From: Candidatus Cloacimonadota bacterium
GTDB taxonomy: Bacteria > Cloacimonadota > Cloacimonadia > Cloacimonadales > TCS61
Assembly: GCA_021735645.1 (NCBI GenBank)
Contig: JAIPGP010000011.1
Coordinates: 1-56,468 of the forward strand
Length of the DNA: 56,468 bases
Direction of reading: 5' to 3'
The number at the start of each line of letters is the position of its first letter. Position 1 is the first letter of the stretch. This document shows positions 7,352 to 52,082 of this stretch, one piece after another. The translations under genes and the position numbers were made by a program. The notes under the pieces are model-generated. The model saw only the letters and a program-made list of their open reading frames with translations. It did no database searches and had not been told where the DNA came from.

Positions 7352-7458
7352 AAATCCTCCCGATATCATGTTTATCTATAGCATACAATATTTTAGCTGA
7401 TTCTCCTTTATATTGCATACTTTTTATTTTAAATATCTGCTCGTCAAGTAATTTCTCC

Positions 7459-7867
7459 TTTGTGGACAGTGGACTAAGTGGACTTAGTGGACGCAGAGGA
7501 CGTAGTGGACATGAAGGTAAAACCTTGCGGAGGTAGAAGACCGGCTATGCAAGCTCTGCAGGGGTAAACTCTCAGTACAGTTGGAATTTCTGGAGCTAAG
7601 TCATTCGTGCACCGCGGGTTATTATCAAGTGGAACGCAGATCACGACCTATCCAAACGATTCCAGCCTGATGCTCTTTCAGGTTGAAATTTTGCATAAAT
7701 TAGCTGACTGGTCGAAGTTTTTGCCTCATCTTCATCATTCTAAATAATCTCTTGTAAAGTCAACCATTGCGAAGGTTCAGCAACCATTCGAAGGTTTTAC
7801 CTTTATGTCCACTACGTCCTCTGCGTCCTCTGCGTCCACTTAGTCCACTACGTCCACTGTCCACAAA
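7459..7867. repeat. Long inverted repeat with arms built of GTGGAC-type 9-mers
   Basis: The left arm (7459-7526) and right arm (7791-7867) are reverse complements, apart from one extra 9-base unit and a few mismatches. Each arm starts with TTTGTGGACAGTGGAC, continues as a 9-base-period array of GTGGACnnA units, and ends with GGTAAAACCTT. The spacer of about 264 bases holds the partial MITE-like copy. The arms could form a long cruciform or RNA hairpin. No transposase or target-site duplication was identified. Confidence 0.75.
7583..7725 (+). repeat. Diverged partial copy of MITE-like repeat (copy A)
   Basis: The segment GCTAAGTCATTCGTGCACCG, then CAGATNACGACC, then CAGGTTGAAATTTTG and GACTGGTCGAAGTTTT, matches the same blocks in the copies at 23415-23766 and 27909-28216. 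It lacks their outer CTGGCATCCCC terminus and the right-hand inner inverted repeat, so it appears truncated or decayed. Confidence 0.65.
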
Positions 7868-8104: not shown

Positions 8105-8602
8105 ATGCAGGAAAAAATTGAAAGTATTGTGAAAGAGGCATGTGCAGCACACGGTGTTGCCTTATATGACCTGGAGATGAAGCCCACGGTTCATGGCAGG
8201 CTGCTGCTGGTCTATGTTACCAGTCTTGGTGGTGTGAAAGTAAGTGACTGCCAGCGTATCAGTTGCAAGATCGAGCATCAGCTTGAGGAAGAGGATTTAG
8301 TGCAGGGCAAGTATATTCTGGAAGTTTCTTCTCCTGGTCTGGAGCGTGAACTGAAGAAGAAGAGTCATTTTGTGAGTGCAATCAATGAGCAGATCAAGCT
8401 GACTGTTCATGGAGAAGAGCAGAACAAGACCCTTGAGGGCAGGCTTCTGGAAGTTAATCCAGACCGGATCACACTTGAGTATGCAGATGGAGAGGAAGAA
8501 GAGGTATTATTGAGTAGAATCAAGAAAGCCAAGACGTTGTATGATTATAAGCAGGATTTAAAGAAGCCTGGAAAAGCTGATCAAAAGAAGGAGAAGGAAT
8601 GA
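8105..8602 (+). CDS. rimP: Ribosome maturation factor RimP
   Basis: At 165 residues this matches the usual RimP length and two-domain form: an N-terminal alpha/beta domain with the family signature around VSSPGLERELKKKSHF, then a C-terminal SH3-like barrel (about residues 90-150). RimP assists 30S subunit assembly in the cytoplasm. The C-terminal tail is very Lys-rich. It is the first gene of the conserved rimP-nusA-ylxR-infB cluster and overlaps nusA by four bases (ATGA), which indicates translational coupling. Confidence 0.95.
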   Translation: MQEKIESIVKEACAAHGVALYDLEMKPTVHGRLLLVYVTSLGGVKVSDCQRISCKIEHQLEEEDLVQGKYILEVSSPGLERELKKKSHFVSAINEQIKLTVHGEEQNKTLEGRLLEVNPDRITLEYADGEEEEVLLSRIKKAKTLYDYKQDLKKPGKADQKKEKE

Positions 8603-23323: not shown

Positions 23324-23414
23324 ATTCCCTCCAGTTATAAACATACCCTATTATCAGCCAGATTGCTGTCAATATCAAATATATCTGTTAGTAGAAGTTT
23401 ACAAAGCAAGAATG

Positions 23415-23766
23415 CTGGCATCCCCCCGAAATTGAAACAATTTCTGCAGCTAAGTCATACGTGCACCGCTGGGTATTTTCAGGGTCGCAGATGACGACCA
23501 TTATCAGCAGATTACAGTATAATATATTTCTCAGGTTGAAATTTTGAATAGATTAGTTGATTGGTCGTAGTTTTCACCCCACTTTCGGAGTACCGCCAGC
23601 GGTGCAAGTCCTACTTAACTAACTCTAATTTAAGGGAAAGTCACTGAAGTGACTACACCGTGTTCGTACATCAAAACGCCCCCAAATGAATTTTGGGGTT
23701 AATGAGAATGTTTTTCCCAGCTACTTTTGGTGACCTACAATGAAATTAATTTCGGGGGGATAATAG
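23415..23766 (+). mobile_element. MITE-like noncoding element, copy B
   Basis: The outer ends are inverted repeats, ATCCCCCCGAAATT at 23420-23433 and its exact complement at 23748-23761, preceded on the left by CTGGC. Inside are imperfect inner inverted repeats of about 24 bases around TGCACCGCTGG (23449-23472 and 23596-23619). Smaller hairpins follow, such as GTCAC-TGAA-GTGAC and CCCCAAA-TGAA-TTTTGGGG. The left 200 bases match copy C (27909-28216, inverted) closely. It has no coding capacity, so any mobility would need a transposase supplied elsewhere. Confidence 0.65.
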
Positions 23767-23785
23767 TAAGAAAGGAAGAATATGC

Positions 23786-23815
23786 TTGACACAATTTTAC
23801 ATAATTATGTATTAG
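23786..23815 (+). promoter_or_regulatory. Putative sigma-70-type promoter
   Basis: TTGACA at 23786-23791 and TATTAG at 23810-23815, spaced 18 bases, lie about 40 bases before the chosen start of the small exported protein at 23857. The spacing is one base longer than the ideal. Confidence 0.45.
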
Positions 23816-23856
23816 ATACATATATTTACCAGATTAAAATGTTATCAGGAGGAACT

Positions 23857-24273
23857 ATGAGTTATTCGTTAACAGGAAGTAAAGTTGTCTCACTTATTTT
23901 AGCTTTGCTTTTATTTTCAATGCCTGTTATTTTGAAGGCACAGCTATTAGAAGAACAAGCTAAAGATCAACAGTCTGCCGAACAGACCTATGCACAGGGG
24001 CAATTAGATGGCAAGCGAGATGCCAAAGGAAATCCGCTCTGGATACTGGCAGGATGTGGTTGCGGACTTTTTGGAGTTCTGGGAGCTATATTAATTAAAC
24101 CAAATCCACCCGCACAGAAGTTAATCGGCAAATCGAATGATTATGTTTTAGGATATACTGAGGCATATAAGAAGGCAGCGTCCGGTAAAAATACCGGTTA
24201 TGCTTTTGGAGGCTGGGCAGCATATTTAATCGCATATTTTGCCAGCGGTGGCTTTGGGACGATGGAACAATAA
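23857..24273 (+). CDS. Small exported glycine-rich membrane protein, unknown
   Basis: A 138-residue protein of no family I recognise. I chose ATG 23857, which has AGGAGG six bases upstream; upstream in-frame codons overlap the promoter. It has a signal peptide or first membrane segment (about 10-28, ending LKAQ), a Gln-rich stretch, a GQxDGKRDAKG motif, and a Gly/Cys-rich hydrophobic segment (WILAGCGCGLFGVLGAILI). A GYTEAYKKAA motif and a final Gly-rich helix follow. It is insulated from the next gene by a strong terminator. Confidence 0.65.
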   Translation: MSYSLTGSKVVSLILALLLFSMPVILKAQLLEEQAKDQQSAEQTYAQGQLDGKRDAKGNPLWILAGCGCGLFGVLGAILIKPNPPAQKLIGKSNDYVLGYTEAYKKAASGKNTGYAFGGWAAYLIAYFASGGFGTMEQ

Positions 24274-24280
24274 CCAGATT

Positions 24281-24316
24281 ATCAGGATATAGCATGCTAT
24301 ATCCTGATTTTTTTTT
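24281..24316 (+). terminator. Rho-independent terminator
   Basis: ATCAGGATATAG and CTATATCCTGAT form a perfect 12-bp stem around CATG, followed by nine T residues. It lies eight bases after the stop of the small exported protein gene. Confidence 0.92.
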
Positions 24317-24355
24317 ATCATTAAATATTAAAATAATGTAAATAAATAGGATATT

Positions 24356-25051
24356 ATGAGGAAAGTACTTTTTCTGGGATTATTTATTTTGTTAGTATTT
24401 TGTCTGTATAGCCAAAAATATGATACTATTCAGGTAGGAATCAACCGCAAGATCATTACGGGTGGTAGTGAAGAATCTGTAAGTGGTAAGATTTATTATG
24501 ATGGAGATAAAACTACAATAGTGATCAGTGAGCCTTTGCTGCAATGGATGATAGTGGAAGATAATTCCATGCTGATTTATTATCCTGATGAACTGAAAGC
24601 AATCAAGCTTAATACCCGTAACCCTGTGACCTTGCCATTTTTTAAGACATTTATTGGTGTGATAAATGAGAATCTGGGGTTAGCGGAACTTGGTTACACT
24701 ATCGACCGTAATGAAGTAGTGGAAGATACTCTTTTCTTATACTGGAATCCGCCTCAGGTTCTGGCAAAAACTTTTGGACAGCATATCCTCAAACTAAAAG
24801 ATAATAAAATAGTCTATAGCGAGCAGCAAAATAAAAAAGGAAAGATACTCAGCAAGACAATCTATTCTGACTATATGGAAGTGAATAATTTCACTTTCCC
24901 CTTGCAGGTGGAATCTTATGTCTATGAGAAAAAGTCTGTCTCTGTTGAATTGATCACCTATTCAAATCCAATCTTCAATGGAAAACTGCCCGAAGAGATT
25001 GAGTTATTTACTCTTCCAGATAATATTGAGGTTAATGAAATTGACTGGTAA
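24356..25051 (+). CDS. LolA-like exported protein
   Basis: A 231-residue protein with a signal peptide (about 1-19, ending LYSQ) and a pattern of antiparallel strands like LolA-type lipoprotein carriers: VSGKIYYDGDKTTIVISEP, a middle LIYYPDELKAI strand, and a C-terminal LQVESYVYEKKSVSVELITYS. LolA-fold proteins carry lipoproteins or lipids across the periplasm. The family call rests on strand pattern and length, not on a strict motif. It opens a four-gene run with the exported YidD-like protein and two TPR proteins. Confidence 0.6.
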   Translation: MRKVLFLGLFILLVFCLYSQKYDTIQVGINRKIITGGSEESVSGKIYYDGDKTTIVISEPLLQWMIVEDNSMLIYYPDELKAIKLNTRNPVTLPFFKTFIGVINENLGLAELGYTIDRNEVVEDTLFLYWNPPQVLAKTFGQHILKLKDNKIVYSEQQNKKGKILSKTIYSDYMEVNNFTFPLQVESYVYEKKSVSVELITYSNPIFNGKLPEEIELFTLPDNIEVNEIDW

Positions 25052-25492
25052 ATGCCAAACTTGAAACTTGCTAGTCTGATTCTGATCATCTTTTTTAGCA
25101 GCAGTTTGGTTTATTCAAACCAGCTTGCCTCCGATCTAAGTTTTATCAGAGAACACAATCCCGCTTTCAAAGCAGCCATTTCTGAGGACTTATCATATGA
25201 TTTCAACCAGAGCTCAGAATTGAAACTCACTATTCTGTTTATGATCCGGACTTATCAGAATTATATATCTTCCCAGCAGAATAGTGTATGCACCTTCACT
25301 CCAAGCTGTTCCAGATTTGGTTATTATTCAATCCGGAAATATGGCTTTTTTTATGGGGTATTGATGACTTCTGACAGATTCCTGCGTTGTCACGGATTCT
25401 CCGCTGACTACTATCCCTATTCATCTGCTGCCGGCAAACTGGATGATCCGGTGGACCAATACTATATGGGGCACATAAAACATGAAAATTAG
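25052..25492 (+). CDS. Exported YidD-domain protein
   Basis: A 146-residue protein with a YidD-like domain (about 50-125): IRTYQNYISSQQNSVCTFTPSCSRFGYYSIRKYG, then DRFLRCHGFSADYYP. This parallels the CRFxPTCSxYA and RILRCHPFHPGGYDP motifs of true YidD, a copy of which is present at 51864-52082. It differs by an N-terminal signal peptide (about 1-22, LVYSN), predicting a periplasmic or membrane-anchored location. The start follows the previous stop without a gap. The function is unknown; a link to envelope protein assembly is an inference. Confidence 0.8.
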   Translation: MPNLKLASLILIIFFSSSLVYSNQLASDLSFIREHNPAFKAAISEDLSYDFNQSSELKLTILFMIRTYQNYISSQQNSVCTFTPSCSRFGYYSIRKYGFFYGVLMTSDRFLRCHGFSADYYPYSSAAGKLDDPVDQYYMGHIKHEN

Positions 25493-26342
25493 AGTTCTTT
25501 TAGTAATATCAATATTCTGCTTTATTAATAATTTATGTTCTGAAAGTGGCTATTACACTCCTCAGAATATCCATTCCTTTGCCGAACATCTCTTCCAGGA
25601 AGGAGATTATTTACGTGCTGCCGGTGAATATGAACGCTATCTTTACCTTAAAGAAAATACTGACGCAGCAATTCTATATAAAATTGCACTTTGTTATGAG
25701 CTTTCACACCAGCCGGATAAAGCTGTCAGGTATTTTAATAAAATCATACAGGAATCTCAACAGCCTGAGCTTATCACTGCCTCTCATTATCAAATTGCCC
25801 ATGTATTCTACTTTACCCACAAATACCAGCAGTCAAATCAATATCTTTTGAACCATAGCCAGCAATTTAGCTCGCCAAAGAACCGGCAAAAAGCTGAATT
25901 GCTGCAAGGCGTAAATCTGCTTTATCAAAAAGACTGGAAAAATGCCGGTAATATCTTTTCATCATTAGCCTCACCTGAGAGACCAAAGATCCAGCAGCTC
26001 AATACTTTATCGCTCTCAGGTTCGCAATTGAAGTATAAAAAGCCGGCTATTGCCGGATGCTTATCGGCAATAATTCCCGGGACAGGTAAATTTTACAGTG
26101 GCAGAATTTCGGACGGGTTATATTCGTTTATTACCATAACCCTTTCAGCCTGGCAGGCTTATGAAGGTTTTTCCGATGATGGAGAGCAGTCATTAAAAGG
26201 GTGGATATATGGGGGTCTGGGCACTGTATTTTATCTTGGCAATATCTATGGCTCGGTGGTATCCGTAAAATTGTATAATAACAAATTAGATGAAAAAATA
26301 TTAGATCAAGTCAACATAGATTTAATCTGGACAATAGAGTGA
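25482..26342 (+). CDS. TPR protein with C-terminal membrane module
   Basis: A 286-residue protein with a signal peptide (about 1-20), several TPR-like helical pairs (about 30-170; DYLRAAGEYERYLYL and PDKAVRYFNKII), and a C-terminal module. That module has AGCLSAIIPGTGKFYSGRISDGLYSF and two hydrophobic segments, similar to the PGxGxxYxG motif of DUF5683-type membrane proteins. It overlaps the YidD-like gene by 11 bases and its own paralogue by four. It probably acts as a scaffold at the inner membrane; the partner is unknown. Confidence 0.65.
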   Translation: MKIRVLLVISIFCFINNLCSESGYYTPQNIHSFAEHLFQEGDYLRAAGEYERYLYLKENTDAAILYKIALCYELSHQPDKAVRYFNKIIQESQQPELITASHYQIAHVFYFTHKYQQSNQYLLNHSQQFSSPKNRQKAELLQGVNLLYQKDWKNAGNIFSSLASPERPKIQQLNTLSLSGSQLKYKKPAIAGCLSAIIPGTGKFYSGRISDGLYSFITITLSAWQAYEGFSDDGEQSLKGWIYGGLGTVFYLGNIYGSVVSVKLYNNKLDEKILDQVNIDLIWTIE

Positions 26343-27211
26343 TAAAACTATCTCAAAATTGCAAAACTATTATCATCTCTGCTCTGTTCCTGCTCAGCAT
26401 TTCTGCAATTCTGCAAGCAAATGATGAATGCCTGGCAATTGCTGAAAGCTTTGCTGATAATGGCAATTATGAATTTGCTGTCACTGAATATAAAAGATAT
26501 CTATTCCTGAATCCTGAAGCTGATAATAGAGATGATATCTTATATGCCATAGGAATAGCATATCGGAATCAGGAAAAATGGCAGGAAGCAATTGATTACC
26601 TTGATAGAGCAATTGCCATATCTGAGAGTGATAGTCTAAAAGACAGCAGAAAAATCGCCAAAGCAGTTATTTACCTGGCGCAGCAGAAGTATAACCTGGC
26701 AGAATTCGAGCTGCTCCGCATTAATACTTTCTCCCGCTATGAAGAAATACGGAATACGGCTGATTTCTTTCTCGCTCTCTGTTTCCTCTATACCGCCGAA
26801 TGGGAGAAATCTCAGCAGGCATTAACTGATTATCTGGGCAGTTCACCAGAAATGCAAATCAAAATCGACTCCTTTTTTGCTCAAACTTCTGAGCTTAAAT
26901 ATAAATCGCCCCGGCTGGCAAAGTGGTTTTCTACTTTTTTACCGGGTTCCGGGCAGATTTATGCGGGTAACTATCATGACGGATTTAATGCCCTTATCAT
27001 TAACTCCCTGAATTTTTACCTTTTTTTTGATTCACTATCTGAACGCCGAATTAATGACGCCTTGATCGGACATTTAACCTTTTGTGAAAGATATTATCGT
27101 GGCAACAGGCATAATGCCGAGCAGACAGCCATTTCCTATAATAATAACCTTAATCAGAAATATAGTCAGACAATCCTGGATTATCTCAGTAATTATCTCA
27201 AAGATTTTTAA
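26339..27211 (+). CDS. TPR protein with C-terminal PGxGQIY membrane module (paralogue)
   Basis: A 290-residue protein starting at GTG that overlaps the previous stop (GTGA). The architecture matches its neighbour: signal peptide (about 1-27), TPR helices (YEFAVTEYKRYLFLNP, WQEAIDYLDRAI), and a C-terminal module with FSTFLPGSGQIYAGNYHDGFNALI and a hydrophobic stretch. Overall similarity to the neighbour is low but collinear, so the pair is probably an old tandem duplication. It is the last gene of the envelope block; no terminator hairpin follows. Confidence 0.65.
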   Translation: MIKLSQNCKTIIISALFLLSISAILQANDECLAIAESFADNGNYEFAVTEYKRYLFLNPEADNRDDILYAIGIAYRNQEKWQEAIDYLDRAIAISESDSLKDSRKIAKAVIYLAQQKYNLAEFELLRINTFSRYEEIRNTADFFLALCFLYTAEWEKSQQALTDYLGSSPEMQIKIDSFFAQTSELKYKSPRLAKWFSTFLPGSGQIYAGNYHDGFNALIINSLNFYLFFDSLSERRINDALIGHLTFCERYYRGNRHNAEQTAISYNNNLNQKYSQTILDYLSNYLKDF

Positions 27212-27535
27212 GTTCCAACCCTGATCCTCCATCAAAGACTTCCTATAGGTCCTATAAGTCCTATATGACCTATAAAAATATCCTCACAGAAAGCTCCTCC
27301 TCACTCAGCCCATATCTCCCCATCCGTGCAACATATAGGCAAGAAGCAACCTGGGTAATTAATTACTGATGTTCCCGACTTGTCTAAGTGTGGAAAATTG
27401 AAAGCAGAAATGTAACTATTCATTGAATATTGTACCATTGGAAATAACAAGGCTTGAATTGAAAATGATCTTTTGGGGGAGGTGTACTTAGATATTTATG
27501 TATCATCAGGTTGAGTGACGGGCTTCAAAAAAAAT

Positions 27536-27556
27536 GATCAATCAAGATGATTGATC
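27536..27556. repeat. Short palindrome related to the 335-439 family
   Basis: GATCAATC and GATTGATC form an 8-bp perfect stem around AAGAT, followed by TCTACG context like the GATTAATCTAC next to the third hairpin near 430. The kinship is suggestive only. Confidence 0.45.
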
Positions 27557-27908
27557 TACGTTTGGGGAAATTAAAAATATTGGGTATGTATTTGTGAAAA
27601 TAGCGAAAAACGTGGCCGACACAGATTAAAGCGATACTAATTAGATAAATAGCCGGTCACAATATGGTCACATTTTATTTGAGTGTCGTAAAAAGCTATA
27701 TAATATGTGATTATGGTTATGAAAAACAGTTTATAAGTCATTTTTTATCAAAAATCAGTGAAAAGACTCACCGGATTGTATTATTTTAGGAATCCAGGAA
27801 ATCAAAGATCATGATAATTGTGGTTAAGATAATTACTTTCAGTTCGGTTTGTTAGTGGCTGAATAGAATTGAAGGTTAGAAAGTTGGAGAGTTTGAAAGT
27901 TAGACACT

Positions 27909-28216
27909 CTGGCATCCCCCTGTTTTTTTGTTTTCATAGCAGGAGTTTTAATGATAATTGACCAGTTAAGTAGGACTTGCACCGCTGGCGGTACTCCTAA
28001 AGTGAGGCGAGAACTACGACCAATCAACTAATCTATTCAAAATTTCAACCTGAGAAATACATTATGCTGGAATCTGCTGATAATGGTCGTCATCTGCGCC
28101 CCTCGTAGACCGTGCCGTAGCCTTGTGCAGCGTAAGCGAAGGATGGACCTGGAAATACCCAGCGGTGCACGTATGACTTAGCTGCAGAAATTGTTTTAAT
28201 TCTGGGGGAATGCCAG
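27909..28216 (-). mobile_element. MITE-like noncoding element, copy C, between direct repeats
   Basis: The ends are CTGGCATCCCCCTG (27909-27922) and the inverted CTGGGGGAATGCCAG at the other side. The inner inverted repeats around TGCACCGCTGG lie at 27965-27988 and 28159-28182. Relative to copy B it carries about 50 extra bases between the left inner repeat and the central block, and its right-hand segment is much shorter. AGTTTGAAAGTTAGACACT occurs on both sides (27890-27908 and 28215-28233), as if the target had been duplicated on insertion. Confidence 0.68.
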
Positions 28217-28510
28217 TTTGAAAGTTAGACACTAACTTGACAGGTATTTCATATTTTGTTTGCGTTTGTTCGCGTTTGTTCGCGGCTAAATAAATCTTGT
28301 ATTACATTCTCTTCTTGTGAACGCAGTGGACATAGTGGACGTAGTGGACATAATTTTGAAATAGCAGTTAACTTTCATTCAATTTTATCACATTACATTT
28401 CTTTATTTTTCGTGTCATTTCGTGGCTTTCGTGGTTAAAATCTTGCATTACATTTCGCAGAGCATCAGTGGTTGATAGCTTGAAATTTACTAATTTTTAT
28501 CTCACCTTAC

Positions 28511-28543
28511 GGATCGACACATTAACACGGTTAATGTACTCCA
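28511..28543 (+). repeat. REP-like hairpin (ACATTAAC-ACG-GTTAATGT)
   Basis: An 8-bp perfect stem with a three-base loop, flanked by GGATCGAC on the left and ACTCCA on the right. The same unit recurs three times at 56072-56468, in one case with paired substitutions that keep the stem. Confidence 0.7.
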
Positions 28544-28624
28544 AAAAAAACTGCAAATATCAATCCAACTGGAACAAATCATGCTCTAAATATTATGAAG
28601 AGAAATATTATCTTAGGAGGATAG

Positions 28625-31600
28625 ATGCGTAAAATTTGTTTATTGGTTTTTGTATGTCTGCTATTCAGCCTTCAGGGCAAGCAGATTCAATTTGATGATC
28701 TGTATTATGAAGAAGGCTTGAATATCACGGCTGAAAGTCCGACCGGTATTGAACTTAGCTATTCCATGAAAGACTTTGAAATTAGTGATATTACAATTGA
28801 CGGCAAGACCTGGGATCAGATTTTGATTTCGGATAAACTGCTTCCCGGAGCTGAAGGTAAACCGGATGTGCCCAATATATCTACTTATCTCGCCCTGCCT
28901 CAAGGCGCCAGAGCAAGTGTAAAGATAATTGATTATCGGACAGAAACGTTTACAGGTCTGGAAATAGCTCCCGCTCCCCGGATACCACTGGAAACTGAGG
29001 ATGGACTGGAATACCCGCTTAATACTGAGGTGTATGCCAGTGATAGTTATTATCCAGCCGATCAGCTAGTGATTGGAGATAATGATCTGATCCGTGGGGT
29101 GGATTGTATGCCGATAGCAGTAAATACCTTCCGTTATAATCCAGTAACAAAGGAACTTCTGGTAATTCGCGACATCAAAATAGAGATCAGCTTCTTAGGC
29201 GGAAATGGACATTTTGGTGAAGACAGACTGCGCAGCCGCTGGTGGGAACCAATCAATCAGGCACTTTTCATCAATCATAACAGCCTGGCAGAAGTGGATT
29301 TCAATCATCATACCCAAAACCGCACGCTAGACTATGAATATCTGATCATCTGTCCTGATGATGAAGATTTTATCGCCTGGGCAGATACTATCGCTGCTTT
29401 CCGTAATAAACAGGGAATCCGCAGCGGGGTAGTTACCATTTCTGATATTGGTGCCAATAGTTACACTCAAATCCAGAGCTATATAGATGATGCGTATAAC
29501 GACTGGGATATTCCTCCGGTTGCTTTCCTGCTGCTGGGCGATTACGGCTCCACCGGCAATACAATCGTTGCTCCTATCTGGGATAACTACTGTGTGTCTG
29601 ATCTCATTTATGCAGATGTGAACTATAATGACATGCCAGATATGGCTCACGCCCGGATCACAGCCAGAGACCCAGACGAACTGGAGACCATGATCATGAA
29701 AGCACTGGATTATGAAACTGACCCGCCCACGAACCCTGATTTTTATAATCATCCGGTTTCGGCTGGCGGCTGGCAAACAGAACGCTGGTTCATTCTCTGC
29801 TCGGAAGCTGTTTATGGTTTCTGGGCAAATGAACTGGGTAAAGAGCCTATCCGCGAATATGCTATATATGCCGGAACTCCCGGTACAGTCTGGTCAACAG
29901 CTACTAATACGGCTACTGTAGTAAATTACTTTGGCCCGAATGGTCTGGGCTATATCCCAGCAACTCCAAATGTGATCACTGACTGGGGCGCAAATGCAAC
30001 ACGCGTGAATCAGGACATCAATGATGGCTGCTTCATGATCCAGCATCGTGACCATGGTGGAGAAGACGGCTGGGGCGAACCAGCGTATTACAATAGTAAT
30101 CTGAATGCTCTGGAAAATGAAGACCTCACATTTGTATTTTCCATCAATTGCCTCACAGGAAAATATAACTGGAATAATGAATGCTTCGCAGAAGCATTTC
30201 ATCGTCATGCCCAGGGAGCTTTGGGCTTGATAGCTGCCTCGGAAGTATCATACTCATTTGTTAATGATGCTTATACCTGGGGAATGTATGACTATATGTG
30301 GCCAGATTTCATGCCTGATTATGGTGAAGCAGGCGAGCCAAACCTGCTGCCCTGTTTTGCCAATGGCTATGGCAAGATATTCCTGCAGCAGAGTGACTGG
30401 CCCTATAACACGGAGAATAAGGAAGTTACCTATAATTTATTTCATCATCATGGTGATGCATTCACCCGTCTTTATTCCGAAGTGCCGCAGGATTTGACTG
30501 TTATGCACGATCCTGTGCTGGTATCAGGTGCAACTTTCTATACTGTTTCTGCTGATGAAGGAGCTTATATCTGTCTTAGTATTGACGGAGAGATTCTGGC
30601 TACCGCCGAAGCTACCGGTGAACCTCAGACAATTATAGTGGAACCTCAAATGCCGATGAACGTTATGGATATAGTAATCACCAAACAGGAATATTACCGT
30701 TATGAGACTTCAGTGCTGATCATACCTCCAGACGGTGCTTATATAGTTTATAACTCCGTGGAAGTGGATGATGCTGCCGGAAATAATAATGGACAGGCAG
30801 ATTACAATGAATCGGTTCTGCTTGATCTCACTTTTGAAAACATTGGAAATGATGAAGGAATCGACGTAGTTGCCACTATATCCTGTGATGATGAATATAT
30901 CACGCTCACGGAACCGGAAGCCCAGGTAGGACTTGTACCGGGTGACACACTCTGGACTATGCAGGATGCCTTTGAACTGGCAATAGCTGATGACATACCT
31001 GACCAGCATCGCGTGCTCTTCACTCTGGAAGTCACTGATGAAAACGCTGAAATCTGGACTTCATATTTCGCGATGGATTTCAATGCTCCTCTGCTGTATG
31101 CTTCCGGCTACCTGATCAATGATATAGAGAATGGCAATGGTGACGGTATCTTTGATGCCGGTGAAACAGTAGATTTTATTATCACTACTGAGAACCGTGG
31201 TCATTCATTAAGTCCCGATGCCGTCAGTACAATTTTCTGTTCAAGTATGGATATCACAGTCAATAACTATTCCTTCCCCTTAGGTGAGATTGCCGTTGAT
31301 GAACCGGTGAATGCCATCTTCTCGCTCACAGCAGACAGCACTATGCACATAGGCACCCAGATCACCTTGAACTATTCGGTTGCATCCGGGAACTACTCAA
31401 TAAACAGGGATTTCCGCACTTCTATCGGCATCACTTCCGAAGGCTTTGAATCTGGTGATTTTCTCAGTTTTGACTGGACATTTGAGGGGAATGCTGACTG
31501 GGTGATCGATACTGACCATCAGGAAGGTGATTATAGTGCTCAAAGCGGGAATGTGTCTGACAACCAAAGCTCTGCTCTCGTAATGGAAGTGGATTTCCTT

Positions 31601-32887
31601 TCCGATGCAAATCTCAGTTTCTACAAGAAAGTTTCTTCGGAAGCAGGATTCGATTTCTTACGCTTCTCACTCGATGATGAAGTATTAGGCGAATGGAGCG
31701 GAAATGTGGACTGGAGCGAAGAAGCCTATTATATCCGCTATGGCAGTCACACTCTCAAATGGGAATTCGTAAAAGATGGCGGAACTTCTTCAGGTGATGA
31801 TTGCGCCTGGGTAGATTATATCATTTTCCCGCCGATCGGTTCTCCTGCTCCTCCGGTTCTACACGTTAATCCCATTATGCTTAATCTGGAAGCTGATCAA
31901 TATTCTGTGCTGGAAGAAACTATCAACCTCAGCAATATTGGTGGTGGTACTATTCTTTACTCAGTGAGAACGGAAAATCCTACTAATAGAAATATCGAAG
32001 AATGCTATATCACGAATTCTACTACTATATTTGAACCAGGTGAAACCACTACCTGGATGTTCACCATATATAATAACAGCGCTGATAATGAATGGATTCA
32101 GGGTGCTTCCATTCAATTCCCCGATGGTGTGACGGTGGACAATGCCCATAACTTTATTATTGCCAATGACCGCGTGATGGAATGGGACGGAACAACCGGA
32201 AATGGTGCCCTGCTTAACTGGTTTGGCATTACTCCATCCGGTTATGGCGTCCTGCGCGGCGGAGAACATGTTACCACTAGTATTGATGTTTCTATCAGTG
32301 AAAACTTCACTGGCGTGATGGAACTCAGTTATTCCATCTTTGGCGATGGTTACGGTTATGAACCTCATGAGGCCTATGGCACTCTGGAACTCACCTACCC
32401 ACTTTCCTGGATAGGTCTTAATCTGCAGAATGGTGCCTTGAACAGCAGTGAAACTGACCCGGTGGTCATCTCTATTGATGCCACTGACCTGGAAGAAGGA
32501 ATGCACCTCTGCGATGTGGTGATCAGCTCCGAAGATATCTATGCAGATGTCCATGTACCCATTGTGCTCAATGTTACTTTCACTGGTGAAGATGATAATG
32601 ATATTCCATTGATCACCAGCCTCAGCGGTTGTCATCCGAATCCTTTCAACCCGGAAACCACTATCAGCTTCCAGCTCAGCACTGCTGCACCTGTCACACT
32701 GGAAGTATATAATATCCGTGGTCAGCTCGTGAAAACTCTTGTAAACGATTTCAGACAGCCCGGAAATTATGACATCATCTGGAAAGGAGTAGATAATTCT
32801 GATCGCTCTGTTTCCTCCGGCGTTTATTTCTACAGAATGCAGGCTGATGATTATCTTCAGACTCGCAAAATGTTATTATTGAAATAA
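28625..32887 (+). CDS. Gingipain-like C25 cysteine protease with T9SS-type sorting domain
   Basis: A 1420-residue secreted protein: signal peptide (about 1-18), gingipain-type propeptide (about 20-235), and C25 peptidase domain (about 236-620). The catalytic pair is H477 in HRDHGG and C509 in SINCLTG, about 32 residues apart as in Arg-gingipain. Ig-like and MAM-like beta domains follow, and a sorting domain ends the protein (NPFNPET to LLLK). It probably acts on or outside the outer membrane in proteolysis or protein processing. AGGAGG precedes the ATG. It has no operon partner, and a strong terminator follows. Confidence 0.88.
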   Translation: MRKICLLVFVCLLFSLQGKQIQFDDLYYEEGLNITAESPTGIELSYSMKDFEISDITIDGKTWDQILISDKLLPGAEGKPDVPNISTYLALPQGARASVKIIDYRTETFTGLEIAPAPRIPLETEDGLEYPLNTEVYASDSYYPADQLVIGDNDLIRGVDCMPIAVNTFRYNPVTKELLVIRDIKIEISFLGGNGHFGEDRLRSRWWEPINQALFINHNSLAEVDFNHHTQNRTLDYEYLIICPDDEDFIAWADTIAAFRNKQGIRSGVVTISDIGANSYTQIQSYIDDAYNDWDIPPVAFLLLGDYGSTGNTIVAPIWDNYCVSDLIYADVNYNDMPDMAHARITARDPDELETMIMKALDYETDPPTNPDFYNHPVSAGGWQTERWFILCSEAVYGFWANELGKEPIREYAIYAGTPGTVWSTATNTATVVNYFGPNGLGYIPATPNVITDWGANATRVNQDINDGCFMIQHRDHGGEDGWGEPAYYNSNLNALENEDLTFVFSINCLTGKYNWNNECFAEAFHRHAQGALGLIAASEVSYSFVNDAYTWGMYDYMWPDFMPDYGEAGEPNLLPCFANGYGKIFLQQSDWPYNTENKEVTYNLFHHHGDAFTRLYSEVPQDLTVMHDPVLVSGATFYTVSADEGAYICLSIDGEILATAEATGEPQTIIVEPQMPMNVMDIVITKQEYYRYETSVLIIPPDGAYIVYNSVEVDDAAGNNNGQADYNESVLLDLTFENIGNDEGIDVVATISCDDEYITLTEPEAQVGLVPGDTLWTMQDAFELAIADDIPDQHRVLFTLEVTDENAEIWTSYFAMDFNAPLLYASGYLINDIENGNGDGIFDAGETVDFIITTENRGHSLSPDAVSTIFCSSMDITVNNYSFPLGEIAVDEPVNAIFSLTADSTMHIGTQITLNYSVASGNYSINRDFRTSIGITSEGFESGDFLSFDWTFEGNADWVIDTDHQEGDYSAQSGNVSDNQSSALVMEVDFLSDANLSFYKKVSSEAGFDFLRFSLDDEVLGEWSGNVDWSEEAYYIRYGSHTLKWEFVKDGGTSSGDDCAWVDYIIFPPIGSPAPPVLHVNPIMLNLEADQYSVLEETINLSNIGGGTILYSVRTENPTNRNIEECYITNSTTIFEPGETTTWMFTIYNNSADNEWIQGASIQFPDGVTVDNAHNFIIANDRVMEWDGTTGNGALLNWFGITPSGYGVLRGGEHVTTSIDVSISENFTGVMELSYSIFGDGYGYEPHEAYGTLELTYPLSWIGLNLQNGALNSSETDPVVISIDATDLEEGMHLCDVVISSEDIYADVHVPIVLNVTFTGEDDNDIPLITSLSGCHPNPFNPETTISFQLSTAAPVTLEVYNIRGQLVKTLVNDFRQPGNYDIIWKGVDNSDRSVSSGVYFYRMQADDYLQTRKMLLLK

Positions 32888-51863: not shown

Positions 51864-52082
51864 TCAGGGAAGCGGATCGTAACCTCCAGGATGAAATGGA
51901 TGACATCGCAAAATTCGGCGGATAGATAAAGATAATGCCTTCAAAAAACTATATCTCCTAAATGCCTGCTGTGAATACACGCTGCACGTTGGTTCATACC
52001 GGCAGCTGGCCGGTAATATCGGAGATAGATAACGACGATATAATCGGATTATTCCAATCATCAGCTCATTTAAGTGTCTCAT
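51864..52082 (-). CDS. yidD: Membrane protein insertion efficiency factor YidD
   Basis: A 72-residue canonical YidD with IRLYRRYLSPILPASCRYEPTCSVYSQQAF and the closing RILRCHPFHPGGYDPLP. I chose the ATG at 52082 because it overlaps the rnpA stop by one base (TAATG). The longer in-frame version starts inside rnpA. It is a cytoplasmic membrane-associated helper of YidC, and differs from the exported YidD-like protein at 25052-25492. Confidence 0.95.
   Translation of the reverse strand: MRHLNELMIGIIRLYRRYLSPILPASCRYEPTCSVYSQQAFRRYSFLKALSLSIRRILRCHPFHPGGYDPLP

Follow-up and report, generated by a model that had tools for sequence, protein, structure and literature searches.

An exported branch of YidD-domain proteins and its neighbouring TPR membrane protein in Cloacimonadota and other phyla

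The role of the YidD family is thinly understood. Why, then, should a bacterium that keeps a canonical yidD beside rnpA and yidC also encode a second YidD-domain protein with a signal peptide, in the midst of genes for TPR proteins? This question was raised by a contig of a Candidatus Cloacimonadota bacterium (JAIPGP010000011.1 of assembly GCA_021735645.1), of which the whole analysed stretch of 56,468 nucleotides is called the window here. The window genome has exactly two YidD genes, g2 and the canonical yidD. The initial annotation had taken g2 for a relocated YidD paralogue, and g1 to g4 for a possible envelope-assembly module of this phylum.

The locus and its cassette

The genes g1 to g4 are four plus-strand ORFs at 24356-27211 (Table 1), and they are as tightly packed as the initial annotation had described them, with a gap of 0 followed by overlaps of 11 and 4 nt. 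The canonical yidD was likewise found where it had been reported, in the order rpmH-rnpA-yidD-yidC-jag. In 8 other Cloacimonadota loci a g0 homologue lies just upstream of g1 or of the exported yidD itself. A terminator-like hairpin (24281-24308) stands between g0 and g1, suggesting that g0 is probably transcribed separately from g1. An Rfam search of the cassette found no RNA.

Table 1. Coordinates of the genes and repeats of the locus in the window.
Feature	Position	Strand	Description
g0	23857..24273	+	small exported protein, glycine-rich hydrophobic segments; outside the interval of the initial annotation
g1	24356..25051	+	exported protein, weakly LolA-like
g2	25052..25492	+	exported YidD-domain protein: signal peptide, linker, YidD domain, insert, C-terminal DPV motif
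g3	25482..26342	+	signal peptide, periplasmic TPR superhelix, C-terminal PGxGxxYxG, two-helix membrane hairpin
g4	26339..27211	+	g3 paralogue, TPR
canonical yidD	51864..52082	-	between rnpA and yidC, without signal peptide; PF01809 97.1 bits
~200-bp interspersed repeat, left copy	23440..23625	+	~25-bp inverted ends; brackets the cassette
~200-bp interspersed repeat, right copy	27963..28191	-	same repeat, inverted; arms 93-94% complementary to the left copy

A well-covered genome of the same genus (G001) has the same neighbourhood, with flanking proteins 71-82% identical to those of the window, and encodes no exported YidD. There, a trmO-like gene is followed directly by a C25-peptidase-like gene, and the interval that holds g0 to g4 in the window (~23345-28567) is missing (window 23345-28567 corresponds to positions 4208-4824 of L220 in G001). 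The GC content of the cassette is 0.38, compared with 0.44-0.45 for the flanking genes. The repeat that brackets the cassette gave 49 matches in the window genome, or roughly 40 elements. The simplest reading is that the cassette was gained as a unit, the alternative being its loss in G001.

Several further features of the region were recorded. The window at ~33-42.6 kb is likewise absent from G001, and a third, partial copy of the ~200-bp repeat (7586-7721) lies between a gene ending at 7369 and a gene starting at 8105. Directly after the cassette, positions 28625-32887 encode a large C25 peptidase, gingipain-like, whose C-terminal domain is of the sorting type.

The exported branch of YidD

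The g2 protein has 146 amino acids and contains the motifs CTFTPSCS and FLRCHGF. It scored above the cut-offs of both YidD models, with 62.8 bits against PF01809 (cut-off 27, E 2.5e-17) and 59.3 bits against TIGR00278 (cut-off 40, E 2.4e-16), both matched over residues 60-118 only, which makes it a YidD member by model match. The residues ahead of the domain are extra, and they include an N-terminal signal peptide, the protein starting with MPNLKLASLILIIFFSSSLVYS followed by NQ. A simple signal-peptide rule, applied identically to the exported and canonical sets, was satisfied by g2; it called an export signal in 95 of 109 exported loci versus 1 of 64 canonical ones, and the 14 exported loci that failed it were mostly borderline by eye. 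YidD motifs behind a signal peptide, as initially described, are thus present in g2. Two marks of an ordinary YidD are missing from it: g2 is not a small protein without an export signal, because a signal peptide and a linker precede the domain, and it does not occupy the rnpA-yidC position, which the canonical yidD holds in the window. Exported yidD copies mostly adjoin g3.

The relationship of the two kinds of YidD was examined in a tree of 132 YidD domains, 71 exported and 61 canonical, the canonical set being drawn from Cloacimonadota and 16 other genomes. One branch split all 71 exported from all 61 canonical domains (support 100/96; 200 of 200 bootstrap trees), and g2 sat on the exported side of it, outside canonical YidD; because the alignment has only 92 columns and some branches are long, this split is the only part of the tree that is reliable. 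The tree rules out g2 as a relocated or recently duplicated copy of the local yidD, and the initial view of it as a relocated paralogue had to be abandoned. All 16 of the genomes from other phyla that were checked whole contained a canonical copy and at least one exported copy each. These results place g2 in an exported YidD branch that is separate from canonical YidD and occurs alongside it in the same genomes.

The exported proteins have in common with YidD (PF01809/TIGR00278) the I/L-S-P and C-x5-C-S motifs, a conserved G, a conserved R and the C-terminal DPV. They are unlike it in having a signal peptide and linker, an insert of ~15-20 residues before DPV, a TPR partner and a branch of their own, without the yidC/rnpA context. 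The residue before the conserved R also differs, being D in 66 and G in 4 of 70 exported members, whereas D was found there in 0 of 61 canonical proteins, which have W, R, K and others instead; in addition, HE replaces RC in 48 exported members. Nonetheless, both TIGR00278 and PF01809 matched all 44 exported proteins scanned. TIGR00278, an equivalog model in use at NCBI, therefore merges the two branches in annotation. A structure model of g2 was of moderate quality (pLDDT 76.8, pTM 0.53), a fold search of this model against the PDB gave no usable match, and a sequence search of a PDB copy returned no recognisable YidD, so that no clue to function comes from the fold.

The TPR partner and the distribution of the pair

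The AlphaFold2 model of g3 (pLDDT 93.6) consists of a signal helix, a TPR superhelix, a short helix at PGxGxxYxG and two long helices, and it is consistent with the two long terminal helices forming a membrane hairpin. A Foldseek search of g3 against the PDB gave TPR domains as the best matches, in agreement with a TPR superhelix. The Pfam matches of the g3 family were TPR families, YfiO (25 of 32 members) and, weakly, DUF5683 (6 of 32) and TM2 (4 of 32); for the C termini of the window's own g3 and g4, nothing exceeded the curated cut-offs of the DUF5683 and TM2 models (g4 reached 17 bits against DUF5683, cut-off 26.7). The g4 protein matched TPR_1 above the cut-off and is a paralogue of g3 (blastp identity 25.6%, E 2e-20). 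Both genes therefore encode TPR proteins, as had been proposed. The g3 protein resembles DUF5683 (PF18935) and TM2 (PF05154) proteins in the PGxGxxYxG motif with a two-helix membrane hairpin after it, but differs from them in the periplasmic TPR superhelix in front. It resembles BamD/YfiO, CpoB/YbgF and other periplasmic TPR proteins as an exported TPR scaffold; unlike BamD/YfiO and CpoB/YbgF, it has the C-terminal hairpin and a different gene context, and no lipobox anchoring was seen in it.

Exported YidD was found in 14 of 125 Cloacimonadota genomes, a count that includes a broken remnant (G058) and a fused gene (G100), and the carriers come mostly from one family. All 13 intact loci with separate genes, two of them in G091, have a g3 homologue directly downstream of the exported yidD; in G104 the contig ends inside g3. 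Full-length g3 proteins of Cloacimonadota scored at least 92 bits, versus at most 73 bits for ordinary TPR proteins. When exported yidD and full-length g3 were counted over the genomes of the phylum, 13 had both, 1 and 3 had a single one of the two, and 108 had neither (Fisher p 5e-14, uncorrected for relatedness). G006 and G011 contain a divergent g3 in another context, without exported yidD. A g3-like TPR/TM gene without exported yidD was also noted near a MerR-type regulator and an apolipoprotein N-acyltransferase-like gene (L155:5662-6516 and L156:4965-5777). Three second YidD matches were set aside, one being canonical-like without a g3 neighbour (L033), one fragmentary (L042), and one below the cut-off and with stops (L047).

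The full four-gene block is rare, being present in ~4 of 125 Cloacimonadota genomes. Homologues of g1 occur together with a second TPR gene in the window genome (G000), G076, G105 and, up to the contig end, G045. In the last three genomes, the only others with g1 homologues, g1 is always immediately before the exported yidD, and the g4-type second copy, found only in blocks with g1, is full in G076 and G105 and shortened in G045. This distribution rules out a four-gene module typical of the phylum; g1 is an occasional addition. The proposed likeness of g1 to LolA is weak. The window protein had no match in Pfam, and hence none to LolA (PF03548) above the cut-off, and one of the four g1 homologues matched PF03548 at no better than E 0.0024, below the Pfam threshold. 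An hhalign comparison of g1 with the LolA of the phylum, which has a separate gene elsewhere in the window genome, gave a probability of 89% (E 2.3e-6), with the match confined to the N-terminal ~90 residues, of which the signal peptide is part. The N-terminal part of that LolA thus resembles g1, and from sequence comparison it is plausible that g1 is LolA-like.

We then looked beyond the phylum. The window g2 alone, used as a query against genome contigs, found nothing; it is too divergent for a single-protein scan, so that an alignment of five sequences was needed. With this alignment, 84,980 named genomes yielded 65 loci in Desulfobacterota together with unclassified Deltaproteobacteria, Nitrospinota and Nitrospirota, with single cases titled SAR324, Lambdaproteobacteria and Magnetococcales. 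The scan was seeded with the pattern ISP[VIT][DY]G[DEQ]RC, and this stretch consequently appears more conserved than it really is. Among the pattern-selected loci outside Cloacimonadota with a readable g2, g3 was adjacent in 41 of 60; in a count of 75 loci it was adjacent and on the same strand in 56, downstream of the exported yidD in 35 and upstream in 21. A profile search of 198 genomes of the phylum of Desulfuromusa (Desulfobacterota), which avoids the bias of the seed pattern, found exported YidD in 40 of them, about a fifth, and g3 neighboured it in 30 of 39 fetched loci, a few of the remaining loci running into a contig end. Between about a fifth and a third of the exported yidD genes have no g3, those of Desulfuromusa among them. 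One long g2 ORF (G315, locus L213; 447 aa as called, in a 592-aa open frame) was rejected as a fusion, being an upstream extension of the reading frame in GC-rich DNA.

The pair of exported yidD and g3 thus occurs in at least four phyla (Cloacimonadota, Desulfobacterota, Nitrospinota and Nitrospirota). The idea of conserved TPR partners held for one TPR/TM protein, g3; the pair is not confined to one phylum, so that a "module of this phylum" is too narrow a description of g2 and g3 and too generous a description of the four-gene block. The conserved unit is g2 plus g3, and the window holds an enlarged version of it in a cassette that varies within the genus. We are highly confident that exported YidD proteins form a branch and that this branch has a conserved TPR/TM partner.

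A possible role at the periplasmic membrane face

In G100 a single ORF, cut at the contig end, joins the C-terminal half of YidD, a hydrophilic linker and g3. The linker contains no membrane segment, suggesting that the YidD and g3 domains should share one side of the membrane. This fusion is the best single hint that g2 and g3 may form a physical complex, which we consider probable. The fused ORF lies at L158:3700-4797 (minus strand). Its contig also has a yidC-jag pair, with the ORF ~1.4 kb past the jag gene.

We propose that g2 would be exported by Sec and its signal peptide cleaved, and that its YidD domain would act on the periplasmic side. The g3 protein would hold this domain at the inner membrane, with its C-terminal hairpin in the membrane and its TPR arm in the periplasm, where the arm might bind a client or the periplasmic side of the translocon. 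As a membrane-active element, the YidD domain would engage the bilayer or the helices of the client, and the pair would be an accessory for the insertion or assembly of envelope proteins. In the window genome and three relatives the pair has gained a LolA-like protein and a second TPR paralogue, an addition that would suit clients that are lipoproteins or other parts of the envelope. E. coli YidD is a membrane protein insertion efficiency factor (Yu et al. 2011, cited in PMC8082313 and PMC3573977), and it is by analogy with that protein that the role in insertion or assembly is suggested; such a role seems possible, and we assign it tentatively. Exported YidD with g3 as a periplasmic-face accessory of envelope insertion or assembly is the explanation that we find best overall, held with a little less than even confidence.

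The gene contexts in Desulfobacterota, where context genes were named from sequence by eye, neither support nor rule out an envelope-assembly role. The pair there is often found amid 2-oxoacid:ferredoxin oxidoreductase and phenylacetate-CoA ligase genes, a setting that does not hint at such a role. The exported yidD genes without g3 and the divergent g3 genes of G006 and G011 without exported yidD also count against the proposal. In L139, L140, L124, L131, L136 and similar loci, g3-g2 stand between indolepyruvate ferredoxin oxidoreductase-type genes and genes of the phenylacetate-CoA ligase and branched-chain amino acid transporter types.

One lineage has a different context. In L098, L099, L106, L107, L117 and L118, an exported yidD without g3 is upstream of znuA-znuC-znuB-type genes, and a Fur-family gene is also present in several of these loci. 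Exported members moreover have C-x5-C plus RC or HE. The protein could accordingly be a metal- or thiol-related periplasmic protein, whose Cys, His, Asp and Glu bind metal or form disulfides and whose YidD ancestry is incidental. We regard this as rather unlikely, since the Znu context is limited to that one lineage, gaps of ~110-460 bp at these loci leave an operon undemonstrated, and the C-x5-C cysteines are conserved in canonical YidD too.

An improbable alternative is that g2 is a secreted membrane-active, haemolysin-like protein, tethered or restrained by the TPR protein and aimed at the cell's own envelope or at competitors. An immunity gene would not be expected to stay as constant in type from phylum to phylum as the TPR partner does, the core motifs of YidD are kept, most copies in Desulfobacterota are in metabolic gene contexts, and neither hypervariability nor an immunity-like partner was seen. 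On the other side, export would put the YidD domain where such action is possible, the cassette is patchy and looks mobile, and ytjA of Bacillus subtilis, a member of the YidD family, is reported to lyse cells, the source of the old "haemolytic" name (PMC3573977).

The bracketing repeats and the absence of the cassette from the same site in G001 would also fit a reading in which exported yidD and the TPR gene are functionally unrelated and adjacent only through shared carriage in small mobile cassettes. This we judge to be quite improbable: the two genes recur in either order, often overlap by 4-11 nt and are fused in one case, and they stay together in several phyla despite differing contexts. 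Finally, although public models name g2 a YidD, we give very little credence to an ordinary YidD that works with YidC and in which the hydrophobic N-terminal segment would be a signal anchor or result from a misread start, given the separate branch, the canonical copy in every carrier checked, the frequency of export signals and the fusion linker, and even a signal anchor would put the domain outside.

A search of a mainly open-access body of literature returned no report of an exported YidD or of YidD with a TPR protein. It is doubtful, in our estimate, that all parts of the following hold together: that the pair is an undescribed two-protein device at the periplasmic face of the inner membrane, that it aids envelope-protein insertion or assembly in at least four phyla, and that it carries the wrong name in databases. 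If an assembly device of this kind is present, a YidD-type function would reach beyond the cytoplasmic face of the membrane to the periplasmic one. Because the exported branch is present in about a fifth of the sampled Desulfobacterota genomes and falls under the same equivalog model, many genomes hold a second, differently placed YidD that is annotated as the same protein, and g3, adjacent and once fused, is a directly testable partner of it.
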